DNA from: Desulfobacterales bacterium | Lineage (GTDB): Bacteria > Desulfobacterota > Desulfobacteria > Desulfobacterales > Desulfosalsimonadaceae | Direction of reading: 5' to 3' | NCBI GenBank assembly: GCA_018334555.1 | Contig: JAGXLR010000006.1 | Span: 1-41,672 of the forward strand | DNA length: 41,672 bases | Shown here: positions 18,670-28,046 of the stretch, piece by piece | Position numbering within the stretch: position 1 is the first letter of the stretch | Layout: each line of letters opens with the position of its first letter | The notes under the pieces: model-generated | Seen by the model: only the letters and a program-made list of their open reading frames with translations | Databases searched by the model: none | Told to the model about the DNA's origin: nothing | Position numbers and translations under genes: made by a program

Positions 18670-20541
18670 TTAATCCGGCTTTAGCCATAATAGCGTGTAA
18701 GGCGCCAAAGACAGGCTGAGAATACCGTCTTTAGCCTTGTATGCGGTGTGCGAGACGATATCGGTGAAACTCGCTGTCAGAGAGAGGCCGGGCAAGCCGG
18801 CGGCGGAAAGCGCCAACGCCGTCTCAAGCGGGGTCTCTGTTACATTGGTCAGGCAGATCAGGCTGCCGGATTTTTCCCCCGTCGTTCGAATCACGGCAAA
18901 AATTTTTTCCGAGAGGTTTAACACCTGCTGGGCGGAGTTGGGATGAAAGGCGGGTTCATGGCGGCGTTTGGCGATCAGCTCGGAAAACGCATAAAAGATT
19001 TTAGCCCTCGTCGTATTTCTACCCCTTAGCTCCTCCTGAAGGCTTTCAGCATGCAATGTTTCGCGGTTGACGCTTCTTGCCACACCGTCGGCCTCAACGG
19101 CCGCCACGGCGTTTTGGCTGCCCAGCAGGCCGTGTATATAGATGCCGGGTACGCCGGCCAGCACGAGGGGGATGGAGCGGAGGGCGAGGTATCGTTTGAT
19201 TTTTATTTCTTCCGACGCTTCCCGACGGTTGTCATCTAGCGCACTGTAGCATGTGATATTGAGCTCATAGGCGCTGGTGGTGCCGTCCCCGGTGTCCTTG
19301 TAGGAAACCAGCCCGCCCCTGTCCTTTACCGTTTGGACCATCCACTCGATTTCCTCATTATTCAGGATCTCCCTGGCCCCGGGCAGCCCGATGCCATCAT
19401 GGCTGTCCATGAAATTGAAAAAAGTGGCGGTATCGGATATTTTTTCAAGCCCCCGGGCCCAGTCCGTGAGTTTTTCGGCGGAGCCGGCGAGAAAGGTGTA
19501 AAGCAGAAGAGGCGGCAGGGCAAAGTTGTAGACCATCTGCGCTTCGTCACGGCCGCTTCCGAAATACGAGATATTCTCCGAATGGGGCACATTGGTTTCA
19601 GTGATCAGCGCCACATGGGGGGCTACTGTATCCAGAATGTCGCGGAACAGCTTGACCACCAGGTGGTTTTCATCGAGATGGACACAGGCCGTTCCGAGCT
19701 GTTTCCACAGATAGGTGACCGCATCCAGCCGGATCACGTCCGCTCCGTGTCGGACATAGAAAAGCAGGAGTCGGATCATGCGGGAGAGAACCGGCCAGTA
19801 TTTGTAATTCAGGTCGATTTGATCCCGGCTGAACGTGGTCCATACGGCCTTCTGGCCGTCAAGGGCATCAAACGTAGACAGCAGCTTGGATGTTCGGGGG
19901 CGGACGATTTTTTTCAGCTGATCGGCCGGGATGGCATCTTCATCCGGGAAAGCGATAAAAAAGTCGGTATAAACCGGATTGGCGTTTAAAAACGCCTGAA
20001 ACCAGCGGTGCTCGGACGATACATGGTTCAGGACCAGATCCACCATCAGGTTAAAGCGCCCCTTGATCCGGGCGAGGTGCGACCAGCCCCCGAGTGCGGG
20101 ATCCACCCGCTCAAAGTCTTTAATCGCAAAGCCACGGTCCGATGAATACGGAAAAAACGGCAGGATGTGGATGGTATTGAAAGTATCCGAGAGGTAGGTC
20201 TCTGCAAAGCGGCATAGCTGGGCAAGCGGCGCCCGGTTTTCGCCCTGGATCATGTCACCGTAAGTGATAAGGATGATATCTTTTTCAGAGAAGCGAGCTT
20301 CCGGATGGCAACTTTTTTCTGCCGCTATCTGTTCGGGGCGCTTGTGTGCATAGTAGACCCTCATGAGCCGTTCAATTTCGGTATAGGCGGCCCTGCCCTG
20401 GGCCTGGCCGTAAATCCGGGTCAGTTTATCAAGGATGCGCGACCGGTTGTCTTCAGGCACCTGAAACACCGGCCGGGAGTAATCCGGAAAAGGCAGGTGC
20501 CCGACCGCGCTTTTTTTCATATCTTCTGGTTCATCAGCCAT
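18670..20541 (-). CDS. GH13 family 18 sugar phosphorylase, probably glucosylglycerate phosphorylase
   Basis: This is a 623-residue alpha-amylase-fold phosphorylase of the sucrose phosphorylase subgroup. The catalytic residues are visible: nucleophile D273 (VIRLDAVTYLWK), acid/base E315 (LITETNVPH) and stabiliser D382 (FMDSHDGIG). LITYGDMIQG and ILPFFPYSSDRGF are subgroup hallmarks. Relatives phosphorolyse sucrose, sucrose-6-phosphate or glucosylglycerate (E. coli YcjM type). I favour glucosylglycerate because the synthase GpgS is encoded at 36488 and no sucrose genes are seen. There is no signal peptide, so it is cytoplasmic. A C-rich low-complexity tract lies just upstream of its start. Confidence 0.85.
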   Translation of the reverse strand: MADEPEDMKKSAVGHLPFPDYSRPVFQVPEDNRSRILDKLTRIYGQAQGRAAYTEIERLMRVYYAHKRPEQIAAEKSCHPEARFSEKDIILITYGDMIQGENRAPLAQLCRFAETYLSDTFNTIHILPFFPYSSDRGFAIKDFERVDPALGGWSHLARIKGRFNLMVDLVLNHVSSEHRWFQAFLNANPVYTDFFIAFPDEDAIPADQLKKIVRPRTSKLLSTFDALDGQKAVWTTFSRDQIDLNYKYWPVLSRMIRLLLFYVRHGADVIRLDAVTYLWKQLGTACVHLDENHLVVKLFRDILDTVAPHVALITETNVPHSENISYFGSGRDEAQMVYNFALPPLLLYTFLAGSAEKLTDWARGLEKISDTATFFNFMDSHDGIGLPGAREILNNEEIEWMVQTVKDRGGLVSYKDTGDGTTSAYELNITCYSALDDNRREASEEIKIKRYLALRSIPLVLAGVPGIYIHGLLGSQNAVAAVEADGVARSVNRETLHAESLQEELRGRNTTRAKIFYAFSELIAKRRHEPAFHPNSAQQVLNLSEKIFAVIRTTGEKSGSLICLTNVTETPLETALALSAAGLPGLSLTASFTDIVSHTAYKAKDGILSLSLAPYTLLWLKPD

Positions 20542-20544
20542 CTC

Positions 20545-20657
20545 AACTACCCTCTCACCCTAAACCCTATACCCTTTATACCCTTTATACCCAATACCCT
20601 ATACCTTAAACCTTACACCCAATACCCAATACCCAATACCCTATACTTTATACCTTA
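20545..20657. repeat. Telomere-like low-complexity tract with G-quadruplex potential
   Basis: The plus strand is built from variants of CCCTATA, CCCTTTATA and CCCAATA. At 20618-20641 it has four CCC tracts spaced by AATA. Read on the minus strand, which is the transcript strand for both flanking genes, this is GGG-TATT four times in register, a classical quadruplex pattern. It fills the whole 113-base gap between the DUF4301 stop and the phosphorylase start. A shorter related tract lies at 38715-38765. Confidence 0.8.
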
Positions 20658-22235
20658 TTGATCTTTTGCCTGGTGCGGATTGCGAAGTAGATCCGTCACC
20701 CGTTTAACCGGATTGAAGGTGATCTGCGGGATTTCGACGAATACCGTATTCCAGTAGGCCATGGCCCCGTTCCAAAGCCCCGGATGCTCAAGGGCTTTTA
20801 AGTCCCTTCCTTCTTCTGATTTATAGGCGATAAATACGGCCTCGGTATCGACATATCGGGATAAATCGAACGGATTGCCGTTTATATCACGGATACTGCA
20901 GACCAGATCCACCGGGTTGAAATGGGTCAACCCCTGCTGAATGGCCTGCTGGCCGTCATCCTCCGGATCAATCTGGCTGGTCTCGACAATCTGGATGGAA
21001 AGATGGCCGTCCCTGTCCTTCACCCAGAAGGGTCCGCCCCCCGGTTCTCCTGAATTGGGGACCATTCCGCAGACACGCAAGGGGCGATTCAACCGATCCA
21101 CAAGATAACGGCGCCGGTCTTCCCTGTCACCGTTATAAAAAGCCTTCGGGGGGGTTACGGAGAGTTCGGTTTCGACGAATCCGGTAACCTCTTCAATCAA
21201 TGGCTCATCGGGCGGATTTTGGCTCAGCGCATCAATATAGTGGAAAATCTTTTCCTGGATGATCAAAAGATAGCCGCAAAGAATCTGCTTGCATTCGATG
21301 GTTTCGGACTTGAACCGGTCGTGAACCACGTTGTCGATATTTTTGATAAATATAATATCGTCTGTCAGGCGGTTAAGGTTTTGGATCAGGGCGCCGTGGC
21401 CGCCGGGTCGGAAAAGCAGTGAACCGTCGTTCCGGCGGAATGGCTGGTTATCCATATCCACAGCGATAGTGTCCGTGGAAGGGCTCTGGACGGAAAAATC
21501 AACCGTGAAACGCGCATCAAAAAGTTTTTCAAACCCGCTTCGGACCGACTCGAGCAGGGATTCAAAATCCTGCCGATGCTCCGGGGAAACGGTGAAATGA
21601 AGCGCGCATTCGCCGGCTTCGGTTTTACTGTAGCCCGCCGCCTCCACCAGGTGTTCTTCAAACGCGGTTCGGGCCGCCTCAGTATATTGGTGAAATTTCA
21701 ATAGCCCTTTGGGTTTGCCGCCATAGCCCAAACCCTTCTCGGTCAACAGGTAGTCCAAAAATGGCTTGAATTCTCCTTTTTCTAAAATACTGGCGGCACT
21801 TATCCCATCGCGCTGCATTGTATCGGCCAGCGCCGGGTAGAAGGCAAACCGTCGGAGTCCATCTATAAATGTGCGGATTTCCGAGGCCTCTGATTCGTCA
21901 TCAAGGATGCCTGCCTTGATATCATCGGCGGTAATCCGGTCATAACGATTATTGGCCTTGATAAGGGTTTTAAACATACGGGTGGCGGCGCCTGAGCTGG
22001 GAACAAATTTTAGCATTCGTCTTTTGACGGCAGCCTCCCGGTATTTTTCAATACAACGCATTTTCAGGCGGTCATCTGGCCTCTTAATGCCGTCGCCGAT
22101 GGTACAGGGGCGATCCAGATTCAGGTAGGGCGTGCCTTTTTTAAACACCGCAATGTGCCTGTTCACCTCATCAACGCTTAAACCATGGGATTTAATCTGC
22201 TCAAGCGCATCTTCCGTAAACTGAGAACCTGCCAT
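20655..22235 (-). CDS. DUF4301 family protein
   Basis: This is a 526-residue cytoplasmic protein with no signal or membrane segments. The segment LKFVPSSGAATRMFK (about residues 75-89) is the recognisable mark of DUF4301. It resembles the GGxGTRM-plus-Lys loop of sugar nucleotidyltransferases, so a nucleotide-sugar role can be suspected but not claimed. RPGGHGALIQNLN and PNSGEPGGGPFWVKDRDG are other glycine-rich blocks. AGAGGA precedes ATG 22235. It is co-directional with the phosphorylase downstream and divergent from the HPt gene. Confidence 0.75.
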   Translation of the reverse strand: MAGSQFTEDALEQIKSHGLSVDEVNRHIAVFKKGTPYLNLDRPCTIGDGIKRPDDRLKMRCIEKYREAAVKRRMLKFVPSSGAATRMFKTLIKANNRYDRITADDIKAGILDDESEASEIRTFIDGLRRFAFYPALADTMQRDGISAASILEKGEFKPFLDYLLTEKGLGYGGKPKGLLKFHQYTEAARTAFEEHLVEAAGYSKTEAGECALHFTVSPEHRQDFESLLESVRSGFEKLFDARFTVDFSVQSPSTDTIAVDMDNQPFRRNDGSLLFRPGGHGALIQNLNRLTDDIIFIKNIDNVVHDRFKSETIECKQILCGYLLIIQEKIFHYIDALSQNPPDEPLIEEVTGFVETELSVTPPKAFYNGDREDRRRYLVDRLNRPLRVCGMVPNSGEPGGGPFWVKDRDGHLSIQIVETSQIDPEDDGQQAIQQGLTHFNPVDLVCSIRDINGNPFDLSRYVDTEAVFIAYKSEEGRDLKALEHPGLWNGAMAYWNTVFVEIPQITFNPVKRVTDLLRNPHQAKDQ

Positions 22236-22380
22236 AATTCTTCCTCTCTCGCTGTAAGCGCCCGCCTATTAATCTTATCAGGGGGCGCCGGTGTTTTTTC
22301 GCTTTTATGCTTTACCCCCAATCATATTCGTATTAGTATTATTATAATTTTATTATGTCGTTTTCGCCAACATTAACCTC

Positions 22381-22417
22381 GTGCCTGTCCATAAATTAGC
22401 CATTTATGGATGGGCAC
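22381..22417. promoter_or_regulatory. Perfectly pairing 15-bp hairpin upstream of HPt gene
   Basis: The arms GTGCCTGTCCATAAA (22381-22395) and TTTATGGATGGGCAC (22403-22417) flank a seven-base loop. In RNA all 15 positions pair, with two adjacent G-U wobbles. It lies 29 bases before ATG 22447, in the divergent DUF4301/HPt gap. It could be an operator, an RNA structure or a small mobile remnant. There is no T tract, so it is not a simple terminator. Confidence 0.6.
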
Positions 22418-22446
22418 GAACCTAAACTATCGAATCTTTGAGCCCT

Positions 22447-22815
22447 ATGCAACAGGACCGACCCATCGGACCGGACACCGAAAGTTTTGCCCTCGATGAG
22501 CTGATCGAGCGCGTTGACGGGGATGAGGGGCTAATTCGGGAGGTATTGGGCATATTTTTGGAGGATGCGCCCAAGGTCCTTGAAAACCTCAGAACAAGTA
22601 TCAAGGGGGGATCACCGGAGGCTGTGGCCAATGCCGCCCATACATTGAAGGGATCTTCCGCCAATATCTCCGCCAACCGATTGCGGGAGAAGGCCTATCG
22701 GCTCGAAATGAAGGCCAAATCCGGAGACCTTGCCGACGCATTCCCTATATATGCAGAGATTGAGGCGGAATTCGGTGAATTGAAGGATCTTCTGAATCAG
22801 TATCTGGGAAAGTAG
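22447..22815 (+). CDS. Histidine phosphotransfer (HPt) protein
   Basis: This 122-residue single-domain HPt protein passes phosphoryl groups between receivers in a phosphorelay. The phospho-accepting His65 lies in NAAHTLKGSSANISA, the exact HPt motif, and the rest is a four-helix pattern with an acidic N-terminal half (FLEDAPKVLENL). The start is uncertain: ATG 22447 has no good ribosome site, and TTG 22438 is in frame. A two-receiver hybrid kinase 3 kb away has no HPt of its own, making it the natural partner. It converges on the kinase-like gene with 20 bases between stops. Confidence 0.9.
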   Translation: MQQDRPIGPDTESFALDELIERVDGDEGLIREVLGIFLEDAPKVLENLRTSIKGGSPEAVANAAHTLKGSSANISANRLREKAYRLEMKAKSGDLADAFPIYAEIEAEFGELKDLLNQYLGK

Positions 22816-22835
22816 CAGCGGCGCTTTTGACCCGC

Positions 22836-24749
22836 CTAGTCCGCTTCCGCCGTGGGCAGCCCCCGCTCTGACCAGGTTGGCCTGTACATGGCATAAAACG
22901 TCCGGTAAAACAGTAGATTCATCAATTCAGCGGCAGTAACCGGTTCCAGCGGAAAGTTCATCAGGGAGCGGGATCGGGTGACCTGCGTTTTAAGTGTTTC
23001 CAGGGTTTTTAAAAACGATATGATGCGTGTCTCCAGCCTTGATGCGTTTTTTGCGGCGGCCTGCTGTTTCTCCCGTTTCAATCGATGCCTGCGGATACTC
23101 TCTGCAGTTGCATTGATCAAGGATTCATGGTTGTTTGGGAATAACTTTTGGCTGTAAACCATTTGATGGATGGCTTCAGTCAGGATGGCGCTTTCCTGAA
23201 CGGCTTCGGCGGAAAGGGTTTTTCGGATATGATGGGTTAAATTGATATGAAGGCCCTCCAGCCGGTATTGATTCGCCTCTAGCCTTTCGGCCAGTTCGAT
23301 TGACGCGGTTTGCCAGAAATTCCAGCTGACCCGTTTAAAAACGTCGGTTAGCCTGCCGGCGTTTTTTTTCTTCAGCCGAATGATTTCCGGCACGAGTTTG
23401 GCCGTTCGGTAGAACAGATGCTGACCGGTGACGATGTTGAAGATGATTCCCAGCGTGGCATACCAGTCCTGCATATAAAGGATTCTAAATATCTGGCTCC
23501 CGAATAATTCTTTTAAAACCGGGTTGGAAAACAGTTGGGAGGGGGTCATGAAAGAGGGGGTGCCCGCCATCAAAGGCTGCTCAAGGGCATTGGGTTGAGC
23601 GGTTTTCAACGATATCGCAGTCTCCAGATCAATCAATCCGAGGGAATAGCCCGACGGGTCGCCCAGTATATGATCCGCCCCATCAAAATTTGTCGCCACA
23701 AAGATGTTATCCGGTTTTAAATCGCGAACCGACACCGCCTGTTCTTTTAATCGGCAGACCAGTTCAAGGGTATTGATAATCAATGCCCCCATTTTCGTCC
23801 GGTTGTTTTCAAAGATTTTTTGCATGACATGGGCATCCACCATCTTTTTATAGCGGGTGATGGCGTTTTTGCCCTTGCCTATAACCGATGGCAGGGCGTT
23901 TTCAATATTTTCGGCGGCGACGGCGGAGTAACCGGCGGCCTGAATATCCGATGCATGGCCGGTTAACTCGTCCATAAACCATTCCGCCTTGAGGTAATCG
24001 GGAATGGAGATAAGCCCCTCGGTATACTCGACCACGCGATCCAGTGTTTTCTGATAGTTTCCGTATAACCGGTTGATCTCGAAGAATATGTCATCATTTT
24101 CGGGGCCATAAATGGTTTCAAAGGCATCCAGGTCAAACAATGCCTCGCGATTTTTATATATGGTCTCAGGTATGCGTGATTTTTTCTCATGCATGGAAAA
24201 CAGCACCTGGTTCAAAAATACGTACCGGGAAAGATCCATAAAAAATGCCAGTCGATCCCCGATTTTTAGATAATTCTGGAGGCCCGGCTCATGGGTCAGC
24301 ATCCGGATATAGTCCTCCTCGGTTTTAAGTATATACCTTTGCCTTTGCTGGGTTTGTGGAATTTTTTTCAGGATGACGGATAGCGTAGGCGACAGACAGA
24401 CGACGTCGGGAGCCAGTTGATTGGCAATTGCCTTTTCCGTCTGAATGAATTTAAGGTACACCTCAAAACTCGGAAATGCCCGGGGCGGTATTTTTATCAC
24501 CAGAAGGTCATCGTAGATGACTTTAAAACAGGTGCTCTTACTTTCCACCGATTCACCGAGCTGTCGGATGCTCATTCGCCGCGTCTTCCATTTCCCGCCG
24601 CATTCGGCCTGGAACTCGAATACCTGGTCCACCCGGCTATGATCGACGACCCTCTGGAAATGGCATCTGGCGTTCTGCCCTTCGGCAAACTCGGTTTGTA
24701 ACCGGAATATATTCAAAAAATATTTTACAATTTTTTCAGTATCAGACAT
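22836..24749 (-). CDS. Divergent Hanks-type protein kinase-like protein
   Basis: This is a 637-residue cytoplasmic protein. Kinase landmarks appear in order: a Lys in LLVIKIP (K86), the catalytic loop VRDLKPDN (341-348), metal Asp in IDLE (374), activation segment GTPSFMTPSQ (396-405), and DWYATLGIIFNIVTG (428-442) matching subdomain IX. Three differences stand out. HRD is VRD, DFG is DLE, and the APE Glu is Ser. About 210 residues of helical sequence separate the Lys from the catalytic loop, far more than usual, and no glycine-rich loop is evident. Catalytic Asp, Lys and Asn are kept, so activity is plausible. It is divergent from an FHA gene, a classical partner of such kinases. No transmembrane or sensor domain was seen. 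Confidence 0.75.
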   Translation of the reverse strand: MSDTEKIVKYFLNIFRLQTEFAEGQNARCHFQRVVDHSRVDQVFEFQAECGGKWKTRRMSIRQLGESVESKSTCFKVIYDDLLVIKIPPRAFPSFEVYLKFIQTEKAIANQLAPDVVCLSPTLSVILKKIPQTQQRQRYILKTEEDYIRMLTHEPGLQNYLKIGDRLAFFMDLSRYVFLNQVLFSMHEKKSRIPETIYKNREALFDLDAFETIYGPENDDIFFEINRLYGNYQKTLDRVVEYTEGLISIPDYLKAEWFMDELTGHASDIQAAGYSAVAAENIENALPSVIGKGKNAITRYKKMVDAHVMQKIFENNRTKMGALIINTLELVCRLKEQAVSVRDLKPDNIFVATNFDGADHILGDPSGYSLGLIDLETAISLKTAQPNALEQPLMAGTPSFMTPSQLFSNPVLKELFGSQIFRILYMQDWYATLGIIFNIVTGQHLFYRTAKLVPEIIRLKKKNAGRLTDVFKRVSWNFWQTASIELAERLEANQYRLEGLHINLTHHIRKTLSAEAVQESAILTEAIHQMVYSQKLFPNNHESLINATAESIRRHRLKREKQQAAAKNASRLETRIISFLKTLETLKTQVTRSRSLMNFPLEPVTAAELMNLLFYRTFYAMYRPTWSERGLPTAEAD

Positions 24750-24891
24750 GATGTCAACCAGGTTTAAGCAAAGTCCTTAAGCTACTTACTGTACTGTTCG
24801 CATTGACTGGAGTCAAACGGATTTTCCCGGATTTTCTTAAAGGGGGGGGTGTCGCATGGGCTGCTTTGCCGGCGGCCCGCCAGTAATATGC

Positions 24892-24920
24892 TTGACCCGG
24901 ATTCCGGGTTTTCATATGAT
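24892..24920 (+). promoter_or_regulatory. Sigma-70 promoter with internal operator-like palindrome, FHA-kinase operon
   Basis: TTGACC (24892-24897) and TATGAT (24915-24920) are separated by exactly 17 bases, each one mismatch from consensus. The predicted leader to the FHA start at 24969 is about 40 bases. The palindrome ACCCGGA-T-TCCGGGT (24895-24909) overlaps the -35 and spacer, a good place for a repressor to block RNA polymerase. It is the strongest promoter-like pattern in the island. Confidence 0.6.
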
Positions 24921-24968
24921 TATTGAATGGATTAACCGATCACCCGATATTTATGGAGCCCGTTATAT

Positions 24969-25766
24969 ATGCCGGTACTGACGCTATATGCAGGTAAAGA
25001 GAAACTGAAAGCCTTCCGTCTGAACCCCGGGGGGGCGCTGACCATCGGGCGTCTGGATAAAAATACGATTGTCCTCGACGACCCGGCGGTGTCGAACTAC
25101 CATGCTGAAATTGAAAGTGAGGGAAAACAATATTTTATTACGGACTATCAGAGCAGAAACGGCACCTTTGTCAATAAAGAGCTGGTCATTTCCCGGCAGC
25201 TCAATCACGGGGATCAGATTACCATCCCCCCCTATACGTTAATTTTCGGCTTTTTGCAGGGGGAGGAAAACGAAGCCTCTTCTCCGGAGACCAGCCAGGC
25301 CACCATGCATATTGACACCTCGGATCATCGTTCCCGGCTTGCCCGGAGCCTGTCGGAAATGGCCGAACCGGATACGAAAAAAGGCAAAGTCGGCTGCCTT
25401 GAGTGTCTCAAGGGGGATCGGGATTCCCTTGTTTTGTCCGAATCCGTGGTTCGAATCGGCAAATCCTCGGATTGCGACATTGTCGTCAAGGGATGGATGG
25501 TCGGCCATACGGCGGCCGAGATCGCAAAGGTCGAAGGGAACAGCTATGTGTTACGCTTTGCCGGAGGCTCCAGAAAGCCCAAGGTCAATTATAAGCCTGT
25601 CTCCAAGGAAGTACGGCTTAATGAGTTCGATATTATAGAGGTCGGCTCTGCGTCCCTTCAGTTTTACTACTGTAAATCAGAAATTCAGCCGGGCAGCCAA
25701 CAGACACAGGAAATCGGCGCCGATGAAATGATGGGGGGGGCGCCGGATGAAAACGGCGGGGCATGA
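24969..25766 (+). CDS. Protein with one canonical and one degenerate FHA domain
   Basis: This 265-residue cytoplasmic phosphothreonine-reader protein carries two FHA-like domains. The first (about 5-95) is canonical: IGR (26-28), SNYH (42-45) and RNGTFVN (63-69), the residues that contact phosphothreonine. The second (about 140-235) keeps the strand pattern (VRIGKSSDCDIVV), but Ser/His is VGHTAAE and NGT is lost, so it probably does not bind phosphopeptide. The linker 100-140 is Ser/Thr-rich and could be phosphorylated. GGAG at 24955-24958 precedes the start. It is divergent from the kinase-like gene and 36 bases upstream of the hybrid kinase. Confidence 0.9.
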   Translation: MPVLTLYAGKEKLKAFRLNPGGALTIGRLDKNTIVLDDPAVSNYHAEIESEGKQYFITDYQSRNGTFVNKELVISRQLNHGDQITIPPYTLIFGFLQGEENEASSPETSQATMHIDTSDHRSRLARSLSEMAEPDTKKGKVGCLECLKGDRDSLVLSESVVRIGKSSDCDIVVKGWMVGHTAAEIAKVEGNSYVLRFAGGSRKPKVNYKPVSKEVRLNEFDIIEVGSASLQFYYCKSEIQPGSQQTQEIGADEMMGGAPDENGGA

Positions 25767-25802
25767 CCCCTTCTTTTCTGGGTTATAAAAACGGGTATAT
25801 CA

Positions 25803-28046
25803 ATGGAAGATCCTCAGACGGCCAATCATTCCAACCAGCAGGCGGCTAATACCAGTCGCTTGTCCAGCTTTCAGCGGCCCCATGAAATCATTCTCTGGAT
25901 TCTTATCGCCGGTATCATGCTGGCGGTTACCGGCTTGTTGTTCCTCCGAAGGGGGCAATTGCCGGGCCCGGCGGCATTGGACATCGCCCTGTGGTCGGCG
26001 ACGATTCTTCTGGTTATCGGTTTGTGCGTGTTTTTGTATCGCTGGTTTATTGCGCCGGCCAAGCAGATGGTATGGTTTATCCTGGCGCGCTACCGCACCG
26101 GCGCCCGAAAACCCTTGCGAAGCGTGCCCAAAAGCTGGCAGCCCTGGTTTCATACGATCGACCGGATGTATTCGAAGATTGAAGACTTGGAGGCGGACTC
26201 GGCCGAAGCCACCCACCATAAACAGCTTGAAAAGAATCTGCTCCGCCGCTTTTCCTGGGTTTTCGAGAGAAACGAGCAGTTGACCAAAGAGGTCGGGGAA
26301 AAAAACAAAGTCCTCGAGCAGGAGATTGAAAGCCACAAAAAAACGGCCCGGGAACTTAAAAAGCATCGCGACCGACTCGATGAAATGGTCAAGGAGCGGA
26401 CTAAGGAGTTAACAGAGGCCAATGAGGCGTTAATCGCCGAAAAAGCCAAAGCCGAAGAATTGGCCAAACAGGCGGATGCCGCCAATCAGGCGAAAAGCCA
26501 GTTTCTCGCCAATATCAGCCATGAAATCCGGACGCCGATGAATGCGATTCTGGGTTTTACGGATATGCTGATTGATACGCCGTTAAACGATAACCAGCTC
26601 GACTACGCCGAGATCATCCGGACCAGCGGGGAAACCTTGATCTCCCTGATCAATAATGTGCTGGATTTTTCAAAGATCGAATCCGGAGAGATCGTACTTG
26701 AGTCCATAGACTTTTCGCCCGAGCTTCTGGCCTATGATGTCTGTGAAATTATTCGGCCGAAAATCGGGGATAAGCCGATCGAACTGGTTTGCAAAATCGA
26801 TGAATCCATTCCGGCCCACCTGAGAGGGGATCCGTTCCGGTTCCAACAGATCTTGACCAACCTGATGGGCAATGCGCCCCGGTTTACCGAGTCCGGCGAG
26901 ATTGCGCTTTCCATGTGGATGGAGACCCGTCAGGACGAAAAGATTAAGCTCCATGTCAGTGTTTCTGATACCGGCGTGGGGATTCCGGAAGACAAACAGA
27001 AAACGATTTTTGAGCCGTTTCATCAGGCTGACAACTCCATATCAAGAAAATTCGGTGGAAGCGGTCTGGGGTTGAGTATCTCCCGGCAGCTGGCCGAGCT
27101 CATGGATGGTACCGTCTGGCTGGAAAGCGAGCCGGAGGTGGGCACCACATTCCATTTTACCGGGTGGCTGGAAAAATCGGAAAAAGCCGCCCCATGGCAG
27201 GATCTGACCGCTTCGCTGGTGGACAAGCAGGTTTTGGTCGTCGATGACAACCAGGTCAATGTGGACATGCTGGTAAACGCCCTCAGTTCAGCCGGAATGA
27301 AAGTCTCCGATCTAAGAAACGGGATGGAGGTGCTGCCCACCCTGGAGCGTGCCCTGGTCGCAGGCAACCCCTTTGATTGTGCGATGATTGATATCCATAT
27401 GCCGGGGATAAGCGGTTATGAAGTCGCGCGTCAAATTCGGGAGTCCGGAAATCAGGATATCGAAAGGCTCCCCTTGATTGCGCTGTCCTACATCACCGAG
27501 CGGGACCCGGATCTGTTTAGTCAGTCCGGTTTTGACAGGTCCATTATTAAGCCGGTTCGGCGGGAAAAACTTTTTCAACTGTTAAACGAATTGATCGGGA
27601 CCGGGCAGAGGACGGACAACGCTACGTCTGAGGCGAAGAAAGCGGATCAAATCGCATCATCATCTGCCGAAAATAAACGGATTCTGGTGGCCGAGGATAA
27701 CGCCGTCAACCAGAAGCTGATCCAGGTGATGCTCGAGAAAGCCGGTTATGCGGTCGAAATAGCGGAGAACGGGATCGATGCGGTGGAGAAATTCTCCGGA
27801 TGCCCGGATGATTTTACGCTTATACTGATGGATATCCAAATGCCGGAAATGGATGGATTCGAGGCCGTCAAGCGGATCCGTAGCAAGGGCTTTGAGGCTA
27901 TTCCTATAATCGCCCTGACCGCGCATGCGCTGGCCGGATACCGGGATGAGTGCCTGGCGGCCGGGATGGACAACTATATCGCCAAACCGGTTAAGCGCCA
28001 GGAGTTGTTTGAGATGTTGGAGAAGTATTTGGCGCCCAATACCTGA
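25803..28046 (+). CDS. Hybrid histidine kinase with two receiver domains
   Basis: This 747-residue membrane kinase has two helices at about 29-48 and 61-81 separated by a very short loop, so there is no periplasmic sensor domain. A long coiled coil (about 120-230) follows. Then come HisKA with His240 ([15 protein letters not shown]) and HATPase with an unusual N box ([14 protein letters not shown]), DTGVGIP and [10 protein letters not shown]. Receiver 1 (476-595) has D530 and K583; receiver 2 (626-742) has D677 and K728. No HPt domain is present, so the separate HPt at 22447 may be its partner. It is in an operon with the FHA gene. The stop codon is taken up by the edge of a family A repeat. 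Confidence 0.94.

Follow-up and report, generated by a model that had tools for sequence, protein, structure and literature searches.

A conserved D-x-E subfamily of kinase-like proteins with a two-part helical insertion in the Desulfobacterales

Closest described kinases

The kinases of the PpkA-Fha and PknQ-MupFHA pairs are of the ordinary Hanks type. In these pairs, as their sources describe them, a Ser/Thr kinase works with an FHA protein, a likeness to the kinase-FHA locus analysed here, and FHA partners are known for Hanks-type kinases (as described in PMC2877116). Other described kinases resemble the present one in motif, with Glu at the position of the DFG Gly: LanKC (DFE; a structure of the ThurKC kinase includes ATP and metal, and altering the DFE Glu impairs modification, as described in PMC10604976), maltokinase (DFE, with the His kept in H-G-D, as given in PMC4306142) and methylthioribose kinase (DPE, as given in PMC4702295, where the extended activation segment is described as unique to protein kinases). 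The LanKC kinase domain also lacks the HRD His, like the family described below.

We analysed a kinase-like gene in a stretch of 41,672 nucleotides from a Desulfobacterales bacterium (assembly GCA_018334555.1, contig JAGXLR010000006.1; hereafter the window). Three features set its subfamily apart: the catalytic-loop sequence [A/S]-x-R-D-L-K-P-D-N, in which the HRD His is missing; D-x-E-T where DFG would be expected; and ~160 inserted residues that are helical and fall into two parts. Neither the kinase fold nor any single one of the motif changes is new, but searches of the open-access literature brought up no account of the two together with a constant helical insert in a kinase that stands alone or is putatively membrane-anchored and often has an FHA partner, and no paper that appeared to describe this family. 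Kinases that break HRD and DFG but keep the catalytic residues test which parts of the motifs matter, and another family that combines these changes as LanKC does, but free of lyase and cyclase, would allow the change from DFG to DFE to be studied in a stand-alone kinase.

Motifs and predicted fold of the kinase-like protein

The features of the gene are listed from the N-terminus, with conservation given among 75 distinct homologues:

22836..24749, minus strand: kinase-like ORF, 637 aa (ATG start, intact frame; Pfam Pkinase match; predicted kinase fold)
24534..24557, minus strand: putative nucleotide-loop equivalent, residues 65-72 (GESVESKS; S72 in 75/75, K71 in 65/75)
24492..24494, minus strand: K86, ATP-site lysine (75/75)
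24435..24437, minus strand: E105, likely alpha-C Glu (19 residues past K86; weak hhalign column match)
24270..24413, minus strand: first insertion, about residues 113-160 (from predicted secondary structure; contains E144, 75/75)
23805..24230, minus strand: second insertion, about residues 174-315 (all-helical by prediction)
23706..23732, minus strand: catalytic loop SVRDLKPDN, residues 340-348 (R342, D343, K345 and N348 each 75/75)
23622..23630, minus strand: DFG equivalent DLE, residues 374-376 (D374 and E376 each 75/75)
23463..23471, minus strand: subdomain IX QDW, residues 427-429 (Q427 and D428 each 75/75)

The initial annotation had described a recognisable catalytic loop and subdomain IX, a lost HRD His, DLE for DFG, Ser for the APE Glu, and retained catalytic Asp, Lys and Asn, and in each of these it read the gene correctly. 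SVRDLKPDN, DLE and QDW translate from the DNA, Val occupies the position of the HRD His, Glu replaces the DFG Gly, residues 402-404 at the APE position are T-P-S, and the retained residues (D343, K345, N348) are found in 75/75 homologues. The Pfam scan of the 637-aa protein returned Pkinase alone (residues 318-483, E 9.8e-5), with 22.3 bits against a curated cut-off of 31.7. Among 36 members, 35 have a Pkinase match at E 0.1 or better and one, with 36.4 bits, lies above the cut-off; the standard Pfam cut-off mostly misses this family. The kinase motifs are not a product of chance, because the Pkinase match (E 9.8e-5) is accompanied by near-invariance in the 75 homologues.

Structure prediction and fold comparison had been proposed as a check, a model unlike a kinase counting against the annotation, and the outcome was a kinase fold. 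AlphaFold2 with 36 homologues gave a mean pLDDT of 89.1 and a pTM of 0.87, and the predicted structure of the ORF is that of a bilobal protein kinase. Apart from TRIB1, a pseudokinase, the 50 matches listed by Foldseek (best E 7.5e-4, TM to query 0.16) and the 50 listed by VIA-align (best Z 14.8, rmsd 4.6, 240 residues aligned) are all protein kinases; the modest Foldseek E-values are due in part to the inserts. In the predicted secondary structure, strands 53-64 and 73-79 flank the loop 65-72, a position that points to this loop as the equivalent of the nucleotide loop, and K86 lies in strand 81-87. The predicted helix 95-112 carries E105. This helix position and the 19-residue spacing from K86, which is also the commonest spacing between ATP-site Lys and alpha-C Glu in ordinary kinases of the order, favour E105 over E144 as the alpha-C Glu; residue 105 is E in 59 homologues, D in 12, G in three and Y in one, and the invariant E144 is, on conservation, a second candidate.

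K86 and D343 are separated by 257 residues (253-261 across the 75 homologues). For ordinary kinases of the order the corresponding distance has a median of 94 and runs from 91 to 115, as measured in the 17 of 21 pattern-found kinases in which both residues were located; the excess is thus ~160 residues. The insertion of about 210 residues initially annotated is therefore too long, and the excess is also split in two. The first insertion (~113-161) precedes predicted strands 162-172, and the second precedes the helix leading to the catalytic loop. Modelled alone, residues 174-322 form seven helices (pLDDT 86.5); searches with this lone fold gave a best Foldseek E of 1.2 and VIA Z values of at most 7.5, of little weight for a helical bundle. 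The insertion probably offers a surface for docking or regulation.

Conservation, relatives and distribution of the subfamily

The alignment of 75 members was obtained from 102 sequences collapsed by identical catalytic cores. Invariant in all of them are K86, R342, D343, K345, N348, G371, D374, E376, T377, T397, Q427 and D428. The position of the HRD His is occupied by I (35), M (22), V (11) or L (7) and never by His; that of the DFG Phe by V (32), F (22), L (19) or M (2), with Glu at the Gly position in 75/75. Position 404 (the APE Glu) is never Glu, but S in 54 members and H, A, T, L or V in the rest. As a control we used 30 ordinary-kinase loci from ten relatives: the HRD His was present in 23/23 kinases whose catalytic loop was located by pattern, and Glu at the DFG Gly position in 0/19 of those whose DFG was located. 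The changes are, on these alignments, fixed features of a subfamily and not decay, as the initial annotation had proposed in suggesting a structurally distinct kinase subfamily: the motifs and the insertion are fixed in 75/75 distinct homologues, and the insertion together with D-x-E defines a conserved group (Lys-Asp spacing 253-261, Glu in 75/75). Simple decay of an ordinary kinase would need homologues in which the HRD His or the DFG Gly is intact, of which there are 0/75. The motif deviations themselves and the Pfam score under threshold are what such a decayed copy would display, yet the same deviations occur throughout, in homologues down to about 30% identity, and the frame is intact; decay is ruled out by this identity of the deviations, and we give it practically no weight.

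The family resembles Hanks-type (PknB-like) kinases in its fold, the ATP-site Lys, the RD loop with Lys and Asn, the DFG Asp, GT and TP in the activation segment and the subdomain IX Asp; the catalytic Lys, Asp and Asn and the Mg-binding Asp that characterise the Hanks type are present in 75/75. It differs from them in lacking the HRD His, in D-x-E for DFG, in the ~160 extra residues before the catalytic loop, and in extra helices; the window kinase has in addition TPS for APE and a score below the Pfam Pkinase cut-off. Could these changes mark a conserved pseudokinase, one that binds ATP without phosphotransfer and retains its fold for scaffolding or allosteric switching? The HRD His and DFG Gly are lost in 75/75 and residue 105 is not Glu in 16/75, as such a protein might have it, but the residues of the chemistry (ATP-site Lys, RD Asp, Lys, Asn and DFG Asp) are invariant in 75/75, and both changes also occur in LanKC kinases, which are functional. 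Typical pseudokinases are not known to keep this full set of chemistry residues. We consider a pseudokinase unlikely.

The HRD and DFG changes do not count against activity because of the precedents in LanKC, maltokinase and methylthioribose kinase, and the retained catalytic residues together with the DFE of LanKC suggest that the ORF encodes an active enzyme. Given LanKC, the combination of a missing HRD His with D-x-E is unusual and not unprecedented. When the family profile was compared with PDB sequences, GCN2 came first and LanKC class III lanthionine synthetases next, and lanKC genes from plasmid records lack the HRD His in 6/6 cases and carry I-D-[FML]-E in 6/6. LanKC has G-D where the present family keeps R-D, and is fused to lyase and cyclase domains, whereas the family is stand-alone or putatively membrane-anchored: no lyase or cyclase was found by Pfam in the 637-aa protein (Pkinase alone), and its match to the NCBIfam LanL model reaches 18.5 bits against a cut-off of 650, over residues 303-444 only. 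No FHA gene is annotated beside lanKC at 6/6 loci. Membership of LanKC was rejected, since the motif is common to both and the lyase/cyclase architecture is absent. Profile-profile comparison, which took 21 of the 30 ordinary kinases (pattern-found), gave 97.5% to ordinary kinases of the order (residues 320-465) and 96.9% to LanKC (318-438); single-sequence scores against the family profile were weak for both alike. With scores this close, the shared motifs of LanKC and this family may reflect descent or convergence.

These data also bear on whether the kinase might instead act on a small molecule or on a peptide natural product, like LanKC, maltokinase and methylthioribose kinase. D-x-E, as reported for these enzymes, is common to all three (DFE, DFE and DPE); small-molecule eukaryotic-like kinases have, as in this family, Glu at the DFG Gly position and inserts in or beside the core; and the profile match to LanKC is high (96.9% over 318-438). 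The match to ordinary kinases is, however, slightly stronger and longer, protein-kinase features follow DLE (GT with T397 in 75/75, TP, subdomain IX Asp), no lyase or cyclase is matched, and the FHA neighbours described below point to protein phosphorylation. Small-molecule kinases are marked by the absence of an extended activation segment, whereas here 54 residues lie between D374 and D428, with GT and TP conserved in the alignment of 75. Such a substrate is in our judgement improbable.

Family matches were found in 140 of 291 sampled genomes of the order (evidently Desulfobacterales), which makes the kinase a likely common signalling route in the order. In the class sample 85/192 genomes had a match, those listed carrying labels from own, through genus and family, to same order; in the phylum sample, at a stricter profile cut-off (E 1e-20), 7/395 had one, six of them within the order. 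Twelve named contigs with family matches are Desulfobacterales or 'Deltaproteobacteria' records. The family is common in one order and nearly absent elsewhere. The searches of plasmids, phages and viral contigs gave no match, which rejected an origin from mobile elements; a PHROGs search with the kinase and an Rfam scan of positions 22000-26000 gave none either. A role in anti-phage defence would fit weak PADLOC matches (PD-T4-6, E 2.1e-4; C3a189 kinase, 1.3e-3), but these span the generic catalytic part only, the scanned neighbours in the window are signalling, transport and metabolic genes, and plasmid, phage and viral contigs held no match; we regard this role as very improbable.

Twenty-six members have at least 760 residues, with N-terminal extensions of 94-204 residues (one of 352) containing hydrophobic stretches. 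Hydrophobic segments were noted in the extensions of these long members (L052, L053, L054, L056, L060, L117 and others), in several of them at ~5-24 and 110-130. Many of them look like two membrane helices flanking a small domain, which suggests that the long members are membrane-anchored receptor forms of the same kinase.

Gene neighbourhood and proposed signalling role

Three signalling genes lie close to the kinase in the window:

22438..22815, plus strand: stand-alone HPt protein, 125 aa (converges on the kinase gene; Hpt 9.5e-16)
24969..25766, plus strand: FHA-domain protein, 265 aa (divergent from the kinase; Pfam FHA 2.2e-27, two stretches)
25803..28046, plus strand: hybrid histidine kinase with HisKA, HATPase and two receiver domains (36 bases past the FHA gene)

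A simple longest-ORF script supplied the calls of neighbouring genes, and a Pfam check covered 20 neighbours and family members. The locus set omitted L001, L031, L032, L033, L035, L036 and L039 as being either the window or probable duplicates of loci from whole genomes. Leaving the window aside, 66 homologous loci were compared; 18 of them have an FHA gene at most two genes away from the kinase, where fewer than one would be expected by chance (assuming about one gene per kilobase); FHA matches in the genome of the window are confined to five ORFs. The link is not universal, being absent in 48/66 loci within two genes, a few of whose contigs end near the kinase. Three FHA neighbours at distant loci were confirmed as FHA proteins by Pfam. 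The linkage occurs with short as well as long members and at several distinct positions of the tree, the short-form loci needing one change and the long-form loci at least three in a quick tree; the link is thus not one inherited accident. A homologue of the hybrid kinase (>100 bits) was found within three genes in 12/66 loci and an HPt gene within three genes in 10/66; as all of the latter loci belong to the window's own family, the phosphorelay link may be local. The locus is thereby unlike PpkA-Fha and PknQ-MupFHA, its FHA gene being paired, in one lineage, with a hybrid histidine kinase and HPt. The second FHA domain (25449-25646) scores 28.1 bits against 73.4 for the first, and may have lost or changed its phosphopeptide binding.

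Rather than being decayed, the kinase is, on its conserved residues, probably a working signalling enzyme. The reading that we favour, with somewhat better than even confidence, is an active Ser/Thr-type kinase of an order-restricted D-x-E subfamily; the FHA protein would read its product, which possibly feeds the phosphorelay. For this reading we demonstrate the predicted fold, the conserved catalytic set, the constant insertion and the FHA gene linkage, and we infer activity, Thr specificity, the FHA protein as reader, the role of the insert and phosphorelay crosstalk. K86, D374 and N348 would hold Mg-ATP, D343 would be the catalytic base, and E376 would help to position the activation segment, a role that has been proposed for its LanKC counterpart. 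The kinase would place phosphate on Thr (or Ser), either its own or a partner's, and the mark would be read by the neighbouring FHA protein, a protein of a phosphothreonine-recognising type. In the window's lineage a hybrid histidine kinase and HPt are encoded together with this reader, and the phosphorelay may be tuned by the Thr mark. More tentatively, and less likely than not, the D-x-E kinases of sulfate-reducing bacteria could join Ser/Thr signalling to two-component phosphorelays: the kinase would mark Thr on the hybrid kinase, the HPt protein or itself, the FHA protein would bridge the two, the fixed insertion would be a module given over to docking, and membrane-anchored members with an extracytoplasmic domain would be receptors of the same pathway.

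Other genes were observed near the kinase. A full-length DUF4301 protein (689 bits) is encoded at 20655-22235 and found near the kinase in several relatives too, and a sucrose phosphorylase-like enzyme of uncertain substrate at 18670-20541 (219 bits against an NCBIfam cut-off of 334). A protein of ~270 aa recurs beside the kinase in 4/26 loci (L038, L042, L050 and L051), the L051 copy matching a CxxCxxCC putative metal-chelating domain, and a macro-domain protein adjoins the kinase at L062:6622-7092.
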